The position numbers were made by a program, and so were the translations under genes. Source: Candidatus Dadabacteria bacterium (GTDB lineage Bacteria; Desulfobacterota_D; UBA1144; Nemesobacterales; Nemesobacteraceae). Taken from it: a DNA stretch of 49,588 nt. The stretch is taken from positions 165,585 through 215,172 of the forward strand of contig VXNX01000009.1 in NCBI GenBank assembly GCA_009840385.1, in the 5' to 3' direction. The notes under the pieces are model-generated. The model did no database searches. It was not told where the DNA came from and saw only the letters and a program-made list of their open reading frames with translations. Shown here piece by piece: positions 40,134 to 45,770 of the stretch. The stretch's first letter is position 1. Each line of letters opens with the position of its first letter.

Positions 40134-41234
40134 CTATCTTCCCTCCACGGTCATCCGCGCCCTCTTCCTTCCTCTCTCAGTGAGAAGGAGTTCTCCACCC
40201 GTAACCGCTATCTCTCCTTTCTGTCTCAGAAATCCGACCACCTTAGAAGCAAAATCGGCTGACCGGAACATCCCCCTGCTGTCGGGATGGTTCTTTACCG
40301 CCTCCCCCTTTTCCTGGTTGTAAAGACTTACGAGAAGCGAGGCCTCAGCAAAATCCATCCTCTGCCTTCTTTTTTCTCTCATTATGCCGAAAAGCCCCCT
40401 TTGCGGAGCAAAGAGGAAAACCGCGAGAAAAAACACCCCGCACACAGAGGCCATCGAGCCCGCTATGTTGACATCAAGCCAGTTGGCAACCCAGAATCCT
40501 GAAATGGCCGCCGAAATGCCGAAAACCACGCTAAGAGAGATCATCCTGAAAAGCGAATCCGTAAGAAGGTAGGCGCAACACGGCGGAATCACTATAAGAG
40601 CTATAACCAGTATCGAACCCACCGCGTCAAACGCCCCGACGCATGTAAGCGACACGACCGCCATGAGCAGATAGTGAATCAGGCGGGGGCGAAAGCCTAT
40701 CGACGAAGCGAAGCTCTCATCAAATGTAGACACCTTAAGCTCCTTGTAGAAAAAGGAGATGAAAAGAAGGTTCAAAAGAAGAATCGAACCCATTACGTAA
40801 GCCGACACGGGTCCCAGATCCATGCCCGACACGATGAACCGGTTAAAGGGTGCGAAAGCTATTTCTCCGAGAAGCACGGAGTGAGTGTCAATATGCACGT
40901 TTCGAGCGTACTTGGAAAGCAGTATGACTGCCACGCTGAAAAGAAAGGGGAAGACAATTCCTATGGACGCGTCTTTTTTCACAAGCCTTGAGCGGTTGAC
41001 CGCTTCTATCAGCGAGATCGCAAGCACCCCGCTGACGGCGGCCCCCACTATGAGGAGCGGTGACGACAGGTCTTTGACGAGGAAAAAAGCGAGTATTATT
41101 CCAAGCAGAACGGAATGACTGATTGCGTCGGTCATCATGGACATTCTTCTGAGAACAAGAAACGCCCCGGGTATAGAGCATGAAGCCGCCACTATAACGG
41201 CTACCAGCTGTATATCAAATTGATGCGGACTCAC
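40134..41234 (-). CDS. troD: Metal ABC transporter permease with C-terminal winged-helix-like tail
   Basis: This 366-residue permease of the ABC-3 (Mn/Zn/Fe) family has about eight membrane helices up to residue 278, then an 80-residue cytosolic tail. The tail (about 285-366) ends in VVGFLRQKGEIAVTGGELLL, then TERGRKRA, a helix-wing pattern like DtxR/MarR-type winged helices. Plain ABC-3 permeases are about 280-290 residues. The start overlaps troC by 4 nt (ATGA). Symbol by analogy with TroD; manganese is inferred from the regulator. Confidence 0.9.
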   Translation of the reverse strand: MSPHQFDIQLVAVIVAASCSIPGAFLVLRRMSMMTDAISHSVLLGIILAFFLVKDLSSPLLIVGAAVSGVLAISLIEAVNRSRLVKKDASIGIVFPFLFSVAVILLSKYARNVHIDTHSVLLGEIAFAPFNRFIVSGMDLGPVSAYVMGSILLLNLLFISFFYKELKVSTFDESFASSIGFRPRLIHYLLMAVVSLTCVGAFDAVGSILVIALIVIPPCCAYLLTDSLFRMISLSVVFGISAAISGFWVANWLDVNIAGSMASVCGVFFLAVFLFAPQRGLFGIMREKRRQRMDFAEASLLVSLYNQEKGEAVKNHPDSRGMFRSADFASKVVGFLRQKGEIAVTGGELLLTERGRKRARMTVEGR

Positions 41235-42358
41235 CGGTTTCTCTCCAACGGGGAAAGTTTCCTGACCTCGCGAATACCGCTTTGGGTAAGACGCCAGTTA
41301 TCCTCCCCGACACTCTCCACGTGTCCCGCAGTCTGAAGTTCCCAGAGACTTTTTTTAACGTTAAAACCCTTTTCGCTCCCAAGCGCAAGCAGTCTCTCGG
41401 AATGCGCGTAGCTGGGATCGTCATGTTCAAGGGCGAGATCGTGTAGGGTTTTTAGGACATAGTCCTTTTTTATTTCCCTCCTGCTCTTCGCGTCTTTGAA
41501 CTTCAGGATGAAAAACCCGTTCGGAGAAAAAAGAATGGAGAAAAAAGCGATAACACTCACGCAAACTATAACCGCGGGTCCCGTCGGCACGTTCTCAAGC
41601 CCCGCACTCAGCGCAACACCCGTAACGCCGGAGATAACCGCTATAAAAGCCGCGAGAACAATCATCAAGCCCATGCTGCCGGTCCACTGCCTGGCCGCGA
41701 CCGCGGGGGCAATCAGCATTGAGCTCATAAGCACGACTCCCACTGTCTGAAGCCCGATCACTATCGCCGACACTATCACGGCCGTAACGAGCATGTCCAT
41801 AGATTTCATGGAAAAACCCATGGTTCCGCCAAAATCCGGATCGAAGCAGAGGAGCTTGAACTCCTTCCAGAAAAGCCCCACTACTAGGAGGGCGAAAAAG
41901 CCTGTAAGACCTATAACCAGAACGTCTTTTTCAACAAGCGCCTCGGCCTGACCGAAAAGAAACTTATCAAGTCCCGCCTGGTTGGCATCTGGAATTCTCT
42001 GCGCGTAGGTAAGAAGGACAAGTCCCAGTCCGAAAAAAACCGAAAGAGCCATTCCCATAGCGCTGTCAGTTTTTACCCTTGAGTTCTCCGTAACGAGATT
42101 GATTAAAAAAACTGCCAGGATGGCGGAGAGCGCAGCCCCGATAAAAATCGGCAGCTGCTCCTTAACTCCCACTATGATGAAGGCAAGCACTATGCCCGGA
42201 AGCGCCGCGTGCGACATGACATCGCCCACAAGGCTCTGCTTTCTCAGCACCGCGTATGAGCCGACCACGCCGCTCACAACTCCAAGCGAAGCCGCTCCCA
42301 GAAGAATTGTTCTGGCCGTATAGTCAGAGAAAAGCTCAACCACAAATTCGAGCATCAC
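41231..42358 (-). CDS. troC: Metal ABC transporter permease with C-terminal winged-helix-like tail
   Basis: This 375-residue ABC-3 permease has membrane helices to about residue 285 and a tail (288-375) with helices followed by KSLWELQTAGHVESVGEDNW and RLTQSGIREV, a recognisable winged-helix pattern. Together with TroD it would form the heterodimeric channel. Both carrying such tails is unusual. Its start overlaps the troB stop as ATGA, and its end overlaps troD by 4 nt, so translation is coupled along the operon. Confidence 0.9.
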   Translation of the reverse strand: MMLEFVVELFSDYTARTILLGAASLGVVSGVVGSYAVLRKQSLVGDVMSHAALPGIVLAFIIVGVKEQLPIFIGAALSAILAVFLINLVTENSRVKTDSAMGMALSVFFGLGLVLLTYAQRIPDANQAGLDKFLFGQAEALVEKDVLVIGLTGFFALLVVGLFWKEFKLLCFDPDFGGTMGFSMKSMDMLVTAVIVSAIVIGLQTVGVVLMSSMLIAPAVAARQWTGSMGLMIVLAAFIAVISGVTGVALSAGLENVPTGPAVIVCVSVIAFFSILFSPNGFFILKFKDAKSRREIKKDYVLKTLHDLALEHDDPSYAHSERLLALGSEKGFNVKKSLWELQTAGHVESVGEDNWRLTQSGIREVRKLSPLERNR

Positions 42359-43131
42359 ACTGCCCTTCTGTCTGCTTTTCTCTCGGGAAAAAAGGAGGTC
42401 TTGCCCCCGTAAGCCTTCATGAGGTTTTCAGAATTGAAAACGTCATCCACCCTTCCCGAAGCCACAAGTCCCACGTTAAGAATGGCGATCCGCTCGTAGT
42501 ATTCGGAAACGGTGTTAAGATCGTGATGAACCGCAAGTACTGTTTTTCCCCCGGTGACAAGCTCTTTCAGTATCCTGACTATGGCTTTTTCGGTCGTGGC
42601 GTCAACCCCTTGGAAAGGCTCATCCAGCAGATAGACCGATGCGCTCTGAACAAGGGCCCTAGCGAGAAACACTCTCTGCTGCTGCCCCCCCGAGAGCTGG
42701 CTTATCTGCCTCTGGGCGAACTCAAGCATATCGACCTTCTCAAGAGCACTAAGCGCCCTTTCGTGTTCCCTTTTTCCGGGACGCCTTATCCAGCCAAGAT
42801 CCCCGTAACTTCCCATTTTCACCGTATCCACAACAGACGTGGGGAAATCCCAGTCCACAGAACCCCTCTGGGGGACGTAGCTGACTTCCTTTCTCTGCTT
42901 TTCGTAGGGTCTTCCGTGGATGGAAACGACTCCCGCGACGCGGGGAACAAGCCCTTGGATAGACTTTATGAGCGTTGTCTTGCCGGCGCCGTTTGGCCCC
43001 ACGACCCCGACCATCGAGCCCTTGGGAATCTCAAGATCTATATCCCAAAGAACGGTCTTGTCTCCGTAAGCGACCGTAAGATCCGTCACACGGATTGCCG
43101 GAACGGCCGGATTCTGCTCTCCGGTATTCAT
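42355..43131 (-). CDS. troB: Metal ABC transporter ATPase
   Basis: This 258-residue ATPase drives metal import through TroCD. Walker A GPNGAGKT is near residues 45-52, the signature LSGGQQQR near 147, Walker B VYLLDEPFQGVD near 168 and the switch HHD near 202. The stretch SYVPQRGSVDWDFP is typical of ABC-3-type Mn/Zn ATPases. The ATG at 43131 is preferred because GGAG lies 7 nt upstream; a GTG three bases earlier is also possible. It overlaps the troA stop. Confidence 0.93.
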   Translation of the reverse strand: MNTGEQNPAVPAIRVTDLTVAYGDKTVLWDIDLEIPKGSMVGVVGPNGAGKTTLIKSIQGLVPRVAGVVSIHGRPYEKQRKEVSYVPQRGSVDWDFPTSVVDTVKMGSYGDLGWIRRPGKREHERALSALEKVDMLEFAQRQISQLSGGQQQRVFLARALVQSASVYLLDEPFQGVDATTEKAIVRILKELVTGGKTVLAVHHDLNTVSEYYERIAILNVGLVASGRVDDVFNSENLMKAYGGKTSFFPERKADRRAV

Positions 43132-44114
43132 CACCCATCTCCGGCGGCCTTGGAATTGGAATCGGCAACCTCGATACTCCGGCTCAGGGACTCGACTATG
43201 GTATCCACGTTGCTTTTGAACATTCCTATGTATGTGCCTTCTTCCGTTCCCGGGTTGCCCATTGAATCCGAGTAGAGACTTCCGCCTATGCGAACATCGA
43301 AGCCTCTTGCCTTCACGGAGGCCCGAAGAGCTCGCATGTATCTCGGAGAGATTGAAGTTTCAACGAAAACGGCCGGAATCTTCCGCTCGGTGATTGTTTT
43401 TGAGAGGTTCTTTATGTCCGCAACGCTGGCTTCGGAGTCGGTACTTATTCCCTGAAGTCCCATTACCTCAAACCCGTAGCCTTTTCCGAAATAGTTAAAC
43501 GCGTCATGGGCCGTTATAAGCACCTTTCTATCGGGTTGCAGCGTGGCGATTTTTTTCTGTATGTAGACCTGCAGCAGGTCAAGTTTTTCGAGATAGGATT
43601 CAGCGTTATGTCTGTAGACGGGGGCGTTTTCCGGGTCGTAGAGTGTAAACGCCTCCATTACCACCTTAGCCGCCTTTTTCCAGAGAGCCACGTCAAACCA
43701 GATATGCGGGTCGTAATACCCCTGATACTCCTCGGGAGAAAAAAGCAGAGACTTGTCAATCCCCTCCGCAACGCCCACGGTGAATATCCCGTTTTTTCTC
43801 ATCTGCCCCAAGACATCAGTAATCTTTCCCTCGAGATTAAGGCCGTTGTAGAAGATCATGTCGGCGCCGGCAAGCTTCTCCACGTCCCCGGCACTTGCCT
43901 TGTAGAGGTGGGGATCAACCCCAGTCCCCATAAGGGAGGTGACCTCAACGGCCTCCCCGGCGATGTTCTCGACAAGATCCCCGATTATCGATGTGGTCGT
44001 AACCACCTTTATCGTGCTTTCTCTTTTTATGCTCCCGCTGCTCTCGGCGCAGGCAGCGCAGAAGACCAGCAGCGCGGACACCAGAAGAAACCGCATCCCC
44101 GTTATGATTTTCAT
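43131..44114 (-). CDS. troA: Metal ABC transporter substrate-binding lipoprotein, TroA-like
   Basis: This 327-residue cluster A-I binding protein captures a divalent metal in the periplasm. The signal ends in CAAC (Cys22). Ligands line up with those of Treponema TroA: His69 (GVDPHLYKAS), His137 (YDPHIWFD), His203 (TAHDAFNYF) and Asp283 (LYSDSMG). The third ligand His fits TroA, which binds Zn, Mn or Fe, rather than the Glu of PsaA/MntC. There is no long His-rich loop as in ZnuA, so a dedicated zinc role is less likely. GAGAGG is upstream of the ATG, 11 nt after mntR. Confidence 0.93.
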   Translation of the reverse strand: MKIITGMRFLLVSALLVFCAACAESSGSIKRESTIKVVTTTSIIGDLVENIAGEAVEVTSLMGTGVDPHLYKASAGDVEKLAGADMIFYNGLNLEGKITDVLGQMRKNGIFTVGVAEGIDKSLLFSPEEYQGYYDPHIWFDVALWKKAAKVVMEAFTLYDPENAPVYRHNAESYLEKLDLLQVYIQKKIATLQPDRKVLITAHDAFNYFGKGYGFEVMGLQGISTDSEASVADIKNLSKTITERKIPAVFVETSISPRYMRALRASVKARGFDVRIGGSLYSDSMGNPGTEEGTYIGMFKSNVDTIVESLSRSIEVADSNSKAAGDG

Positions 44115-44125
44115 TTTTTCCTCTC

Positions 44126-44785
44126 TCAGTTCTTCGCTTCCTCAACCAATATGTACTTGGCCGCGTTTCGCCCTATCGGATACTCCTTCCCGGTCAGTTC
44201 AACGATTATGGGACCCTGAAACGGCTGCTTCGAGACAACCGTCATCTCGGTTTCCGGGTAGAGACCTATCCCGCCCAGGTAACGAAGCAGCTCCGGGTCG
44301 TGATCGCTCACCTCGACCACTTTTACCAAAGTGTCGGGCTCAATCTCCACAAGGGCGCTGCACTGCCTCACGATCATAGTGCCGTCGCGACGCGGAATCG
44401 GGGAACCGTGCGGGTCAGTGACCGGATAGCCGAGAAACTCGTCAATCCTGTCCTCAAGATCCTCTGAGAGCACGTGTTCCCATTTCTCGGCTTCCTCGTG
44501 CACTTGGTCCCAAGGAACGCCGAGAGCTTCTTTTAGGTAAAGCTCGATAAGCCGGTGATGTCTGATTATCTCAAGAGCTATTTTCCTGCCCGCGGGTGTA
44601 AGCTTCACCCCTTGGTAGCGCTTGTGGGTTATGAGCTTTTTCTCCGAGAGCTTCTTCACCATGCTCGTCACCGAAGCCGGAGACACGCCCAGTTTTTCCG
44701 AAAGCGCACTGGTCGAAACCTTCCCTTCGGAAGCCTCAACCTCGTAAATAGTCTTCAGGTAATCCTCTATTGACTGTGAAAGCAT
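44126..44785 (-). CDS. mntR: DtxR/MntR-family metal-dependent repressor
   Basis: This 219-residue regulator has a winged helix (1-65), a metal-binding dimerisation domain (66-125) and a C-terminal SH3/FeoA-like domain (about 140-217). Metal ligands read Asp8, His77, Glu100, Glu103 and His104. Asp8 and Glu100 replace the Met10 and Cys102 of iron-sensing DtxR, which is the MntR pattern and predicts manganese sensing; Glu11 of B. subtilis MntR is Lys here. The three-domain build is like SloR/ScaR/SirR. The ATG at 44785 was chosen over a TTG at 44806. It heads mntR-troABCD. Confidence 0.9.
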   Translation of the reverse strand: MLSQSIEDYLKTIYEVEASEGKVSTSALSEKLGVSPASVTSMVKKLSEKKLITHKRYQGVKLTPAGRKIALEIIRHHRLIELYLKEALGVPWDQVHEEAEKWEHVLSEDLEDRIDEFLGYPVTDPHGSPIPRRDGTMIVRQCSALVEIEPDTLVKVVEVSDHDPELLRYLGGIGLYPETEMTVVSKQPFQGPIIVELTGKEYPIGRNAAKYILVEEAKN

Positions 44786-44841: not shown

Positions 44842-44859
44842 TTTTAGTCTTGTCTAAAT
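44842..44859. promoter_or_regulatory. Candidate MntR/DtxR operator
   Basis: TTTAG (44843-44847) and CTAAA (44854-44858) are perfect inverted arms with a 6-nt centre (TCTTGT). The shape and A/T-TTAG..CTAA pattern are like DtxR-family boxes. It covers about +3 to +18 of the predicted mntR transcript, a position suited to repression. Confidence 0.5.
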
Positions 44860-44868
44860 TTGTTTTTA

Positions 44869-44896
44869 ATTCTAGCAAAAACAGATCGCCTGTCAA
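44869..44896 (-). promoter_or_regulatory. Sigma70-like promoter for mntR-troABCD
   Basis: Consensus TTGACA (44891-44896) and TAGAAT (44869-44874) are 16 nt apart on the minus strand. The predicted start is near 44861, immediately next to the palindrome, with a leader of about 76 nt to the mntR ATG. Confidence 0.6.
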
Positions 44897-44948
44897 GGAA
44901 AAATCGCGGGGTTTCGAAAAGAGGTGTTTATGGCTTAGAATAAGCCCC

Positions 44949-45770
44949 ATGTGGAAGAAGCCATATAGCAGAAGAAAGAATGTCTTTACCGGAAGTTTGA
45001 CAGGTTTTATCTTCTTCTTTCTCCTTATTTTTTCCGCATCTTCCACAACGGAGAGCAAGGAGAATCCTCCTGCCCGCGCTACCTTCAAGGTGCTTAACTC
45101 TTTTTCGCACGACCCGACGGCCTTCACCCAAGGGTTTGTCTACAGAGACGGTTTCCTTTATGAAAGTACCGGCCTTTACGGAAAGTCTTCTCTTAGAAAA
45201 ACCAACCCAGCCACCGGAGAGGTGCTTGCCAAGGTAAACCTCCCACAGAAGTTTTTCGGCGAAGGTCTTACCGTAATAGGCAAGAGCATATACCAGCTCA
45301 CCTGGAAGTCCGGTCGGGGTTTCATATACGGCAAGGAAAACCTGCAGCGCAAGGGATCATTCACCTATTCAACCGAAGGATGGGGGCTTACAGACAACGG
45401 AACCAGCCTTATAATGAGCGATGGGACCGAAAAACTGTATTTTCTCTCTCCCGAGAGCTTCGAAGTAACAAAGACATTAAGCGTCAAAGAAGGCGGATCC
45501 CCTGTCAGTATGCTTAACGAACTTGAGTACGCAGGGGGAAAAATCTACTGCAACATATGGAACTCAGACGATATCGTGGTCGTAAACCCCGAGAGCGGCG
45601 TGGTGGAGAGACGCATAAGCCTCGGGGAATTAAGAAAAAGGTTGAGCCTTCCCGAAAGAGCGGAAGTGCTGAACGGAATCGCCTGGAAATCCTCTTCTGA
45701 CACTTTCTTTATAACGGGAAAGTACTGGTCCGAGGTTTTTGAGATAAGAATCGATTCCGCTTCCCCTTGA
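44949..45770 (+). CDS. Glutaminyl-peptide cyclotransferase (bacterial/plant type)
   Basis: This 273-residue exported protein converts N-terminal glutamine of peptides to pyroglutamate. An N-terminal basic stretch and hydrophobic segment (about 14-32) give a signal peptide or anchor. The beta-propeller signatures are FSHDPTAFTQGFVYRDG, STEGWGLTDNG, LNELEYAGGKIYCNIW and LNGIAWKSSSDTFFITGKYW, the last with the typical TGKYW. The ATG at 44949 is chosen because it begins the signal peptide; no good ribosome-binding site is seen. It is divergent from mntR, so the operator between them might also affect it. Confidence 0.87.
   Translation: MWKKPYSRRKNVFTGSLTGFIFFFLLIFSASSTTESKENPPARATFKVLNSFSHDPTAFTQGFVYRDGFLYESTGLYGKSSLRKTNPATGEVLAKVNLPQKFFGEGLTVIGKSIYQLTWKSGRGFIYGKENLQRKGSFTYSTEGWGLTDNGTSLIMSDGTEKLYFLSPESFEVTKTLSVKEGGSPVSMLNELEYAGGKIYCNIWNSDDIVVVNPESGVVERRISLGELRKRLSLPERAEVLNGIAWKSSSDTFFITGKYWSEVFEIRIDSASP

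Follow-up and report, generated by a model that had tools for sequence, protein, structure and literature searches.

The window (the whole stretch of 49,588 nucleotides that was analysed) carries a minus-strand operon of five genes, mntR-troABCD, for a DtxR-family regulator and a metal ABC importer, with a glutaminyl cyclase gene as its divergent neighbour. The following features were identified:

40134..41234, minus strand: troD, ABC-3 family permease with a C-terminal extension similar in kind to that of TroC
41231..42358, minus strand: troC, ABC-3 permease with a C-terminal winged-helix-like extension (about residues 282-375)
42355..43134, minus strand: troB, ABC ATPase
43131..44114, minus strand: troA, cluster A-I metal-binding lipoprotein (PF01297)
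44126..44785, minus strand: mntR, DtxR-family regulator with N-terminal DNA-binding, dimerisation and FeoA (SH3-like) domains; ATG at 44785
44843..44858, no strand: putative operator TTTAG-N6-CTAAA, reading TTTAGACAAGACTAAA on the operon strand; the gap from the -10 hexamer to the box is 10 bp
44869..44874, minus strand: -10 hexamer TAGAAT of the mntR-troABCD promoter (16-bp spacer); TAGAAT/TAAAAT in 13 aligned genus members
44891..44896, minus strand: -35 hexamer TTGACA of the same promoter, invariant in 16/16 aligned cassettes
44914-44941, plus strand: promoter-like site TCGAAA-16-TAGAAT of the cyclase gene, ending 7 bp before the ATG at 44949
44949..45770, plus strand: glutaminyl cyclase (PF05096), divergent neighbour, probably outside the regulon

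The operon is compact, with 11 bp between mntR and troA and a 4-bp overlap at each junction from troA to troD. Pfam assigned its transport proteins to the ZnuA-type binding protein, ABC ATPase and ABC-3 permease families. TroD was recognised by NCBIfam with a score below the cut-off, and the best family model for TroA, the zinc protein AztC, also scored below its cut-off.

The C-terminal extensions of TroC and TroD (80-95 residues; window 41231-41515 and 40134-40382) are conserved across several phyla. The model of the TroC extension is a winged helix (pLDDT 80.2), and its weak Foldseek matches (E 0.005-0.1) included the DtxR-family proteins IdeR, MntR and DR2539. At two other loci (L151 and L166) the TroC-type extension continues into a stretch resembling the DtxR dimerisation domain. 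Such an extension may possibly let the transporter itself sense metal or bind DNA.

Promoter, box and operon layout were seen directly. The sequence-only reading had described a TTGACA-16-TAGAAT promoter with a TTTAG-N6-CTAAA palindrome at about +3 to +18, and the present search recovered both. The promoter (44896-44869, minus strand) scored 11/12 and was the top promoter-like site of the 5 kb scanned. The palindrome, TTTAGTCTTGTCTAAA at 44843-44858, had 0 mismatches, was the sole exact match in the window by pattern search, and lies at about +3/+5 to +18/+20 relative to the predicted start. The chance of finding such a promoter in the 164-bp intergenic gap, which is AT-rich, was 0.0014, and that of finding such a box was 0.0015, a figure that is suggestive only.

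Conservation of the palindrome in relatives, on which the same reading had staked its claim, was evident. Exact patterns were searched in genomes which, judging by their titles, are metagenome-assembled (MAGs) or uncultured assemblies. The box was found at most 150 bp upstream of the mntR homologue in 39/61 homologues with upstream DNA (shuffle control: mean 0.03, maximum 1 in 300 shuffles); it was absent within that distance in the other 22/61, some of which carry it before an upstream operon gene. Outside the Dadabacteria loci, 23/42 mntR homologues had the exact box, with representatives in Calditrichota, Poribacteria, Zixibacteria, Chloroflexi, Bacteroidota and other phyla, and the fuller form TTTAGG-N4-CCTAAA was frequent among boxed homologues. 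Only 20/4286 other windows contained it. When exact boxes were counted over whole genomes of AT-rich relatives, the reversed control was equally frequent.

Within the genus, the box stands upstream of mntR in 13 of the 14 members, the 14th being interrupted by a contig end. In the 13 aligned regulatory regions the -35, the -10 and the box are almost invariant, and the sequence upstream of the -35 differs. The nearest named genomes are Candidatus Dadabacteria MAGs and would be of sponge origin, to judge from their isolate names. On sequence grounds the box is a real element, conservation deciding the matter beyond the local chance figure. At a Poribacteria locus (L143:7078-9447), the genes after the boxed mntR are ferritin-like/VIT1-type and copper-oxidase-like, neighbours hinting at a wider metal regulon.

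The regulator matched the N-terminal DNA-binding domain PF01325 (E 1.2e-19) and the dimerisation/metal domain PF02742 (E 7.5e-33), both above cut-off, as well as the C-terminal SH3-like/FeoA domain PF04023 (E 1e-16), bearing out its earlier description as a three-domain protein and placing it in the three-domain subgroup. It is the only PF02742 protein in its genome. It had also been credited with the MntR ligand set, and this held in part. Asp8, His77, Glu100, Glu103 and His104 (own numbering) are present and invariant in three aligned sequences; among 63 relatives, position 8 is D/N, position 100 is E/D, and positions 103 and 104 are invariant. Asp8, Glu100, Glu103 and His104 correspond to a Mn-type primary site, and H77/E81/H96 match the ancillary site and are conserved in the alignment. 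Asp161 is conserved, aligns with a residue in the SH3 domain of SloR, and is likely a metal ligand of that domain here. The ligand roles of the primary- and ancillary-site residues are assigned after those in DtxR, SloR and ScaR.

The exception was Glu11 of the B. subtilis-type MntR, a ligand of the binuclear site, which is Lys11 here and in 63/63 relatives. The curated NCBIfam cut-offs for that type were likewise missed (PRK03902, 85 bits vs 138; TransRegMntRTherm, 196 vs 350). The best PDB sequence match was DR2539 (E 8.7e-46).

From these features we infer regulator binding, the direction of control and the identity of the metal as follows. A single sigma-70-type promoter would drive mntR-troABCD. 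When cytosolic Mn(II), possibly Fe(II) too, is sufficient, the regulator dimer would be metal-loaded and bind the palindrome, where its position at about +4 to +19 would block initiation or promoter clearance, switching off both the regulator and the ABC importer. When the metal drops, the regulator would release the palindrome and uptake would rise. Through a duplicated promoter-operator, described below, the same regulator would repress an orphan CzcC/TolC-type outer-membrane gene. Such a metal-dependent autorepressor switch, including the predicted co-repression of the orphan gene, is very probably what the locus encodes. That the DtxR-family regulator represses its own five-gene operon has strong support from two observations: the box is kept before mntR across phyla, and the genome holds a single PF02742 protein.

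The sequence-only reading had proposed Mn-dependent autorepression; the autorepression stood, and the Mn specificity was weakened by Lys11, by the match to DR2539 and by feoB neighbours. The same circuit with iron as the signal, or with Mn and Fe acting equally as in a Fe/Mn rheostat, is quite possible, though short of probable. DR2539 of Deinococcus radiodurans, in which the authors note Lys in place of Glu11 and which also has the SH3 domain, responds to Mn(II) and Fe(II) (PMC3327659), as does the TroR of Treponema denticola (PMC2628430). Moreover, mntR lies near feoB at two boxed loci (L144 and L153, where a second DtxR-domain protein and feoB follow mntR) and at a third that has no upstream DNA (L139). 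On the other hand, Asp8 and Glu100 replace Met10 and Cys102 of DtxR/IdeR, which are Mn-type substitutions, and the gene set targeted here codes for a tro-type importer rather than for FeoB. Elsewhere the neighbours of mntR include an Nramp gene (L161) and a ZIP gene (L181). For the autorepressor switch, the signal metal suggested by the sequence is Mn, possibly Mn and Fe.

Searching the whole genome for the palindrome, as had been proposed, gave one further target. The genome (G000; 1,655,437 bp, 97.75% complete) contains two exact boxes, and the full box occurs only in the promoters of mntR and of the orphan CzcC/TolC-type outer-membrane gene (czcC). Apart from the two full boxes, relaxed matches in the pattern scan (at most two mismatches in 14 letters) fell within genes or next to genes unrelated to metals; all together they were fewer than those of the reversed-pattern control (6-7 vs 16-17), and they were put down to chance. 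The second box (G000:C5:111541) belongs to a promoter whose homology to the mntR promoter extends from the -35 through codon 4 (ATGCTTTCNCA, MLSQ), with about 79% identity (score 122 vs a shuffle maximum of 35). A convergent origin was rejected because the match also covers the leader that separates the box from the start codon (59, against at most 30 in 5000 shuffles). The duplication, like the conservation of the box, was directly seen.

The gene behind the second box is of the TolC/CzcC type (PF02321), with an IhpA model match below cut-off. No czcB or czcA was found beside it, and no HME-RND pump scored above its family cut-off in this genome. Two other genomes (G008 and G011) share the promoter copy, adjoining a methylthiotransferase gene; in G011 the sequence upstream of the copy ends a tRNA-Ser-like gene, and the czcC reading frame is broken near its start. 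In G005 a decayed piece remains at the corresponding place. In G001, G005, G006 and G007 about 5 kb separate czcA from a czcC that has no box. Between G000 and G008 the orphan czcC showed a dN of 0.13 and a dS of 1.04, indicating purifying selection. A znuB-znuA-type pair and a gene for a histidine-rich predicted outer-membrane protein lie about 8 kb from the orphan czcC on the same contig (C5; L034:11528-15283), and in G006 (L236) the same cluster is placed between czcC and czcBA.

As the geometry of the copy is identical to that of the mntR promoter, co-repression of czcC is to be expected and activation is unlikely. An efflux-type function for czcC under low metal is a puzzle.

In related families the operon has a different head. 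The box precedes an unnamed gene for a predicted outer-membrane barrel in the layout barrel-mntR-troABCD in one genome (G014) and in most members of these families, and in one family (f3) a second box precedes mntR. No member of the barrel gene was found in the 14 genomes of the present genus. The barrel was modelled with 12 strands (pLDDT 72.6), and the model came nearest to the channels FapF and COG4313 (E about 1e-7). Pfam gave no family above cut-off for the protein, and the PDB no relative by sequence. In two Dadabacteria genomes (L129:6222-9907 and L131:7700-11388), barrel-mntR has both boxes, but in place of troABCD there follow a cytochrome-c-peroxidase-like gene and genes for a PhnD-like ABC importer.

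From its position, we infer that the barrel could have a role in Mn entry, like MnoP. It may further be speculated that the regulon includes a dedicated outer-membrane Mn step, provided by the barrel in most related families and, in part of the genus that lacks the barrel, by the orphan CzcC/TolC-type protein through the captured mntR promoter. The latter would then help to acquire metal, either by letting it in or by export of a metallophore or of competing metals, unlike ordinary CzcCBA efflux. This wider proposal is rather unlikely.

The suggestion that MntR might also govern the divergent glutaminyl cyclase, which would work through the intergenic region common to both, did not fare well. 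Here, as in several relatives, the cyclase gene is the divergent next neighbour, and in another genus (L018/L128) the box lies about 60 bp from the cyclase start. However, the cyclase has its own promoter-like site, the -10 hexamer of which is conserved in relatives with an adjacent cyclase and the -35 of which is 55 bp from the operator box, and at three loci (L119, L121 and L122) the box has not changed even though the cyclase is 1-5 kb distant. Control of the cyclase by MntR is therefore improbable. The cyclase mRNA may be leaderless or nearly so, since the promoter-like site ends so close to the ATG. The -10 of this site lies within a small inverted repeat, GGCTTA-GAA-TAAGCC (window 44914-44951).

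A reading of the palindrome as a stem-loop in the leader, or as a dyad arisen by chance in AT-rich DNA, instead of an operator would fit its place within the transcribed leader and the 34% G+C of the region, but is highly improbable given the low chance figure and a box before mntR kept in place and sequence across phyla while its flanks vary.

The mntR-tro switch itself is ordinary and well conserved; the twist is the copy before an orphan gene for an efflux-type outer-membrane channel in a few genomes. New here are this mntR promoter copy driving a CzcC/TolC-type gene and, in most related families, a barrel gene at the head of the operon. For an uncultured phylum, the analysis thereby provides a metal-uptake switch that can be tested and whose operator sequence is common to several phyla. 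The copy is a clear case of regulon entry, in which a duplicated promoter was captured along with codons 1 to 4 of the donor gene, and the unnamed barrel family is a lead as a candidate outer-membrane Mn channel.

Among known systems, the troABCDR operon of T. denticola combines a regulator and the same type of ABC importer in one operon, and its TroR has three domains including the SH3-like one (PMC2628430). Both loci have a sigma-70-like promoter with a DtxR-type dyad close downstream, the T. denticola operator also being 10 bp from the predicted tro promoter (PMC2628430). They differ in gene order, with the regulator first here and last in T. denticola, in Asp8, which is Asn10 in TroR, and in the operator, which in T. 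denticola is a different dyad, of 18 bp (PMC2628430).

DR2539 (PDB 8pvt/8pw0) resembles the present regulator in the Lys at the Glu11 position of MntR, the His98 equivalent and the SH3-like domain; it is a Mn-dependent repressor whose target promoter must contain an inverted repeat and whose binding is abolished by EDTA, whereas its known target is mntH at another locus (PMC3327659). The streptococcal SloR and ScaR (PDB 5cvi and 3hrs) share the three domains and, by alignment, the equivalents of both metal sites, but are more distant (E about 1e-30), and Cys123 of SloR is Asp124 here. MnoP of Bradyrhizobium is an outer-membrane channel for Mn uptake, as cited in PMC9334652. The barrel would be alike in its proposed outer-membrane Mn role, and in its model it resembles the FapF and COG4313 channels.
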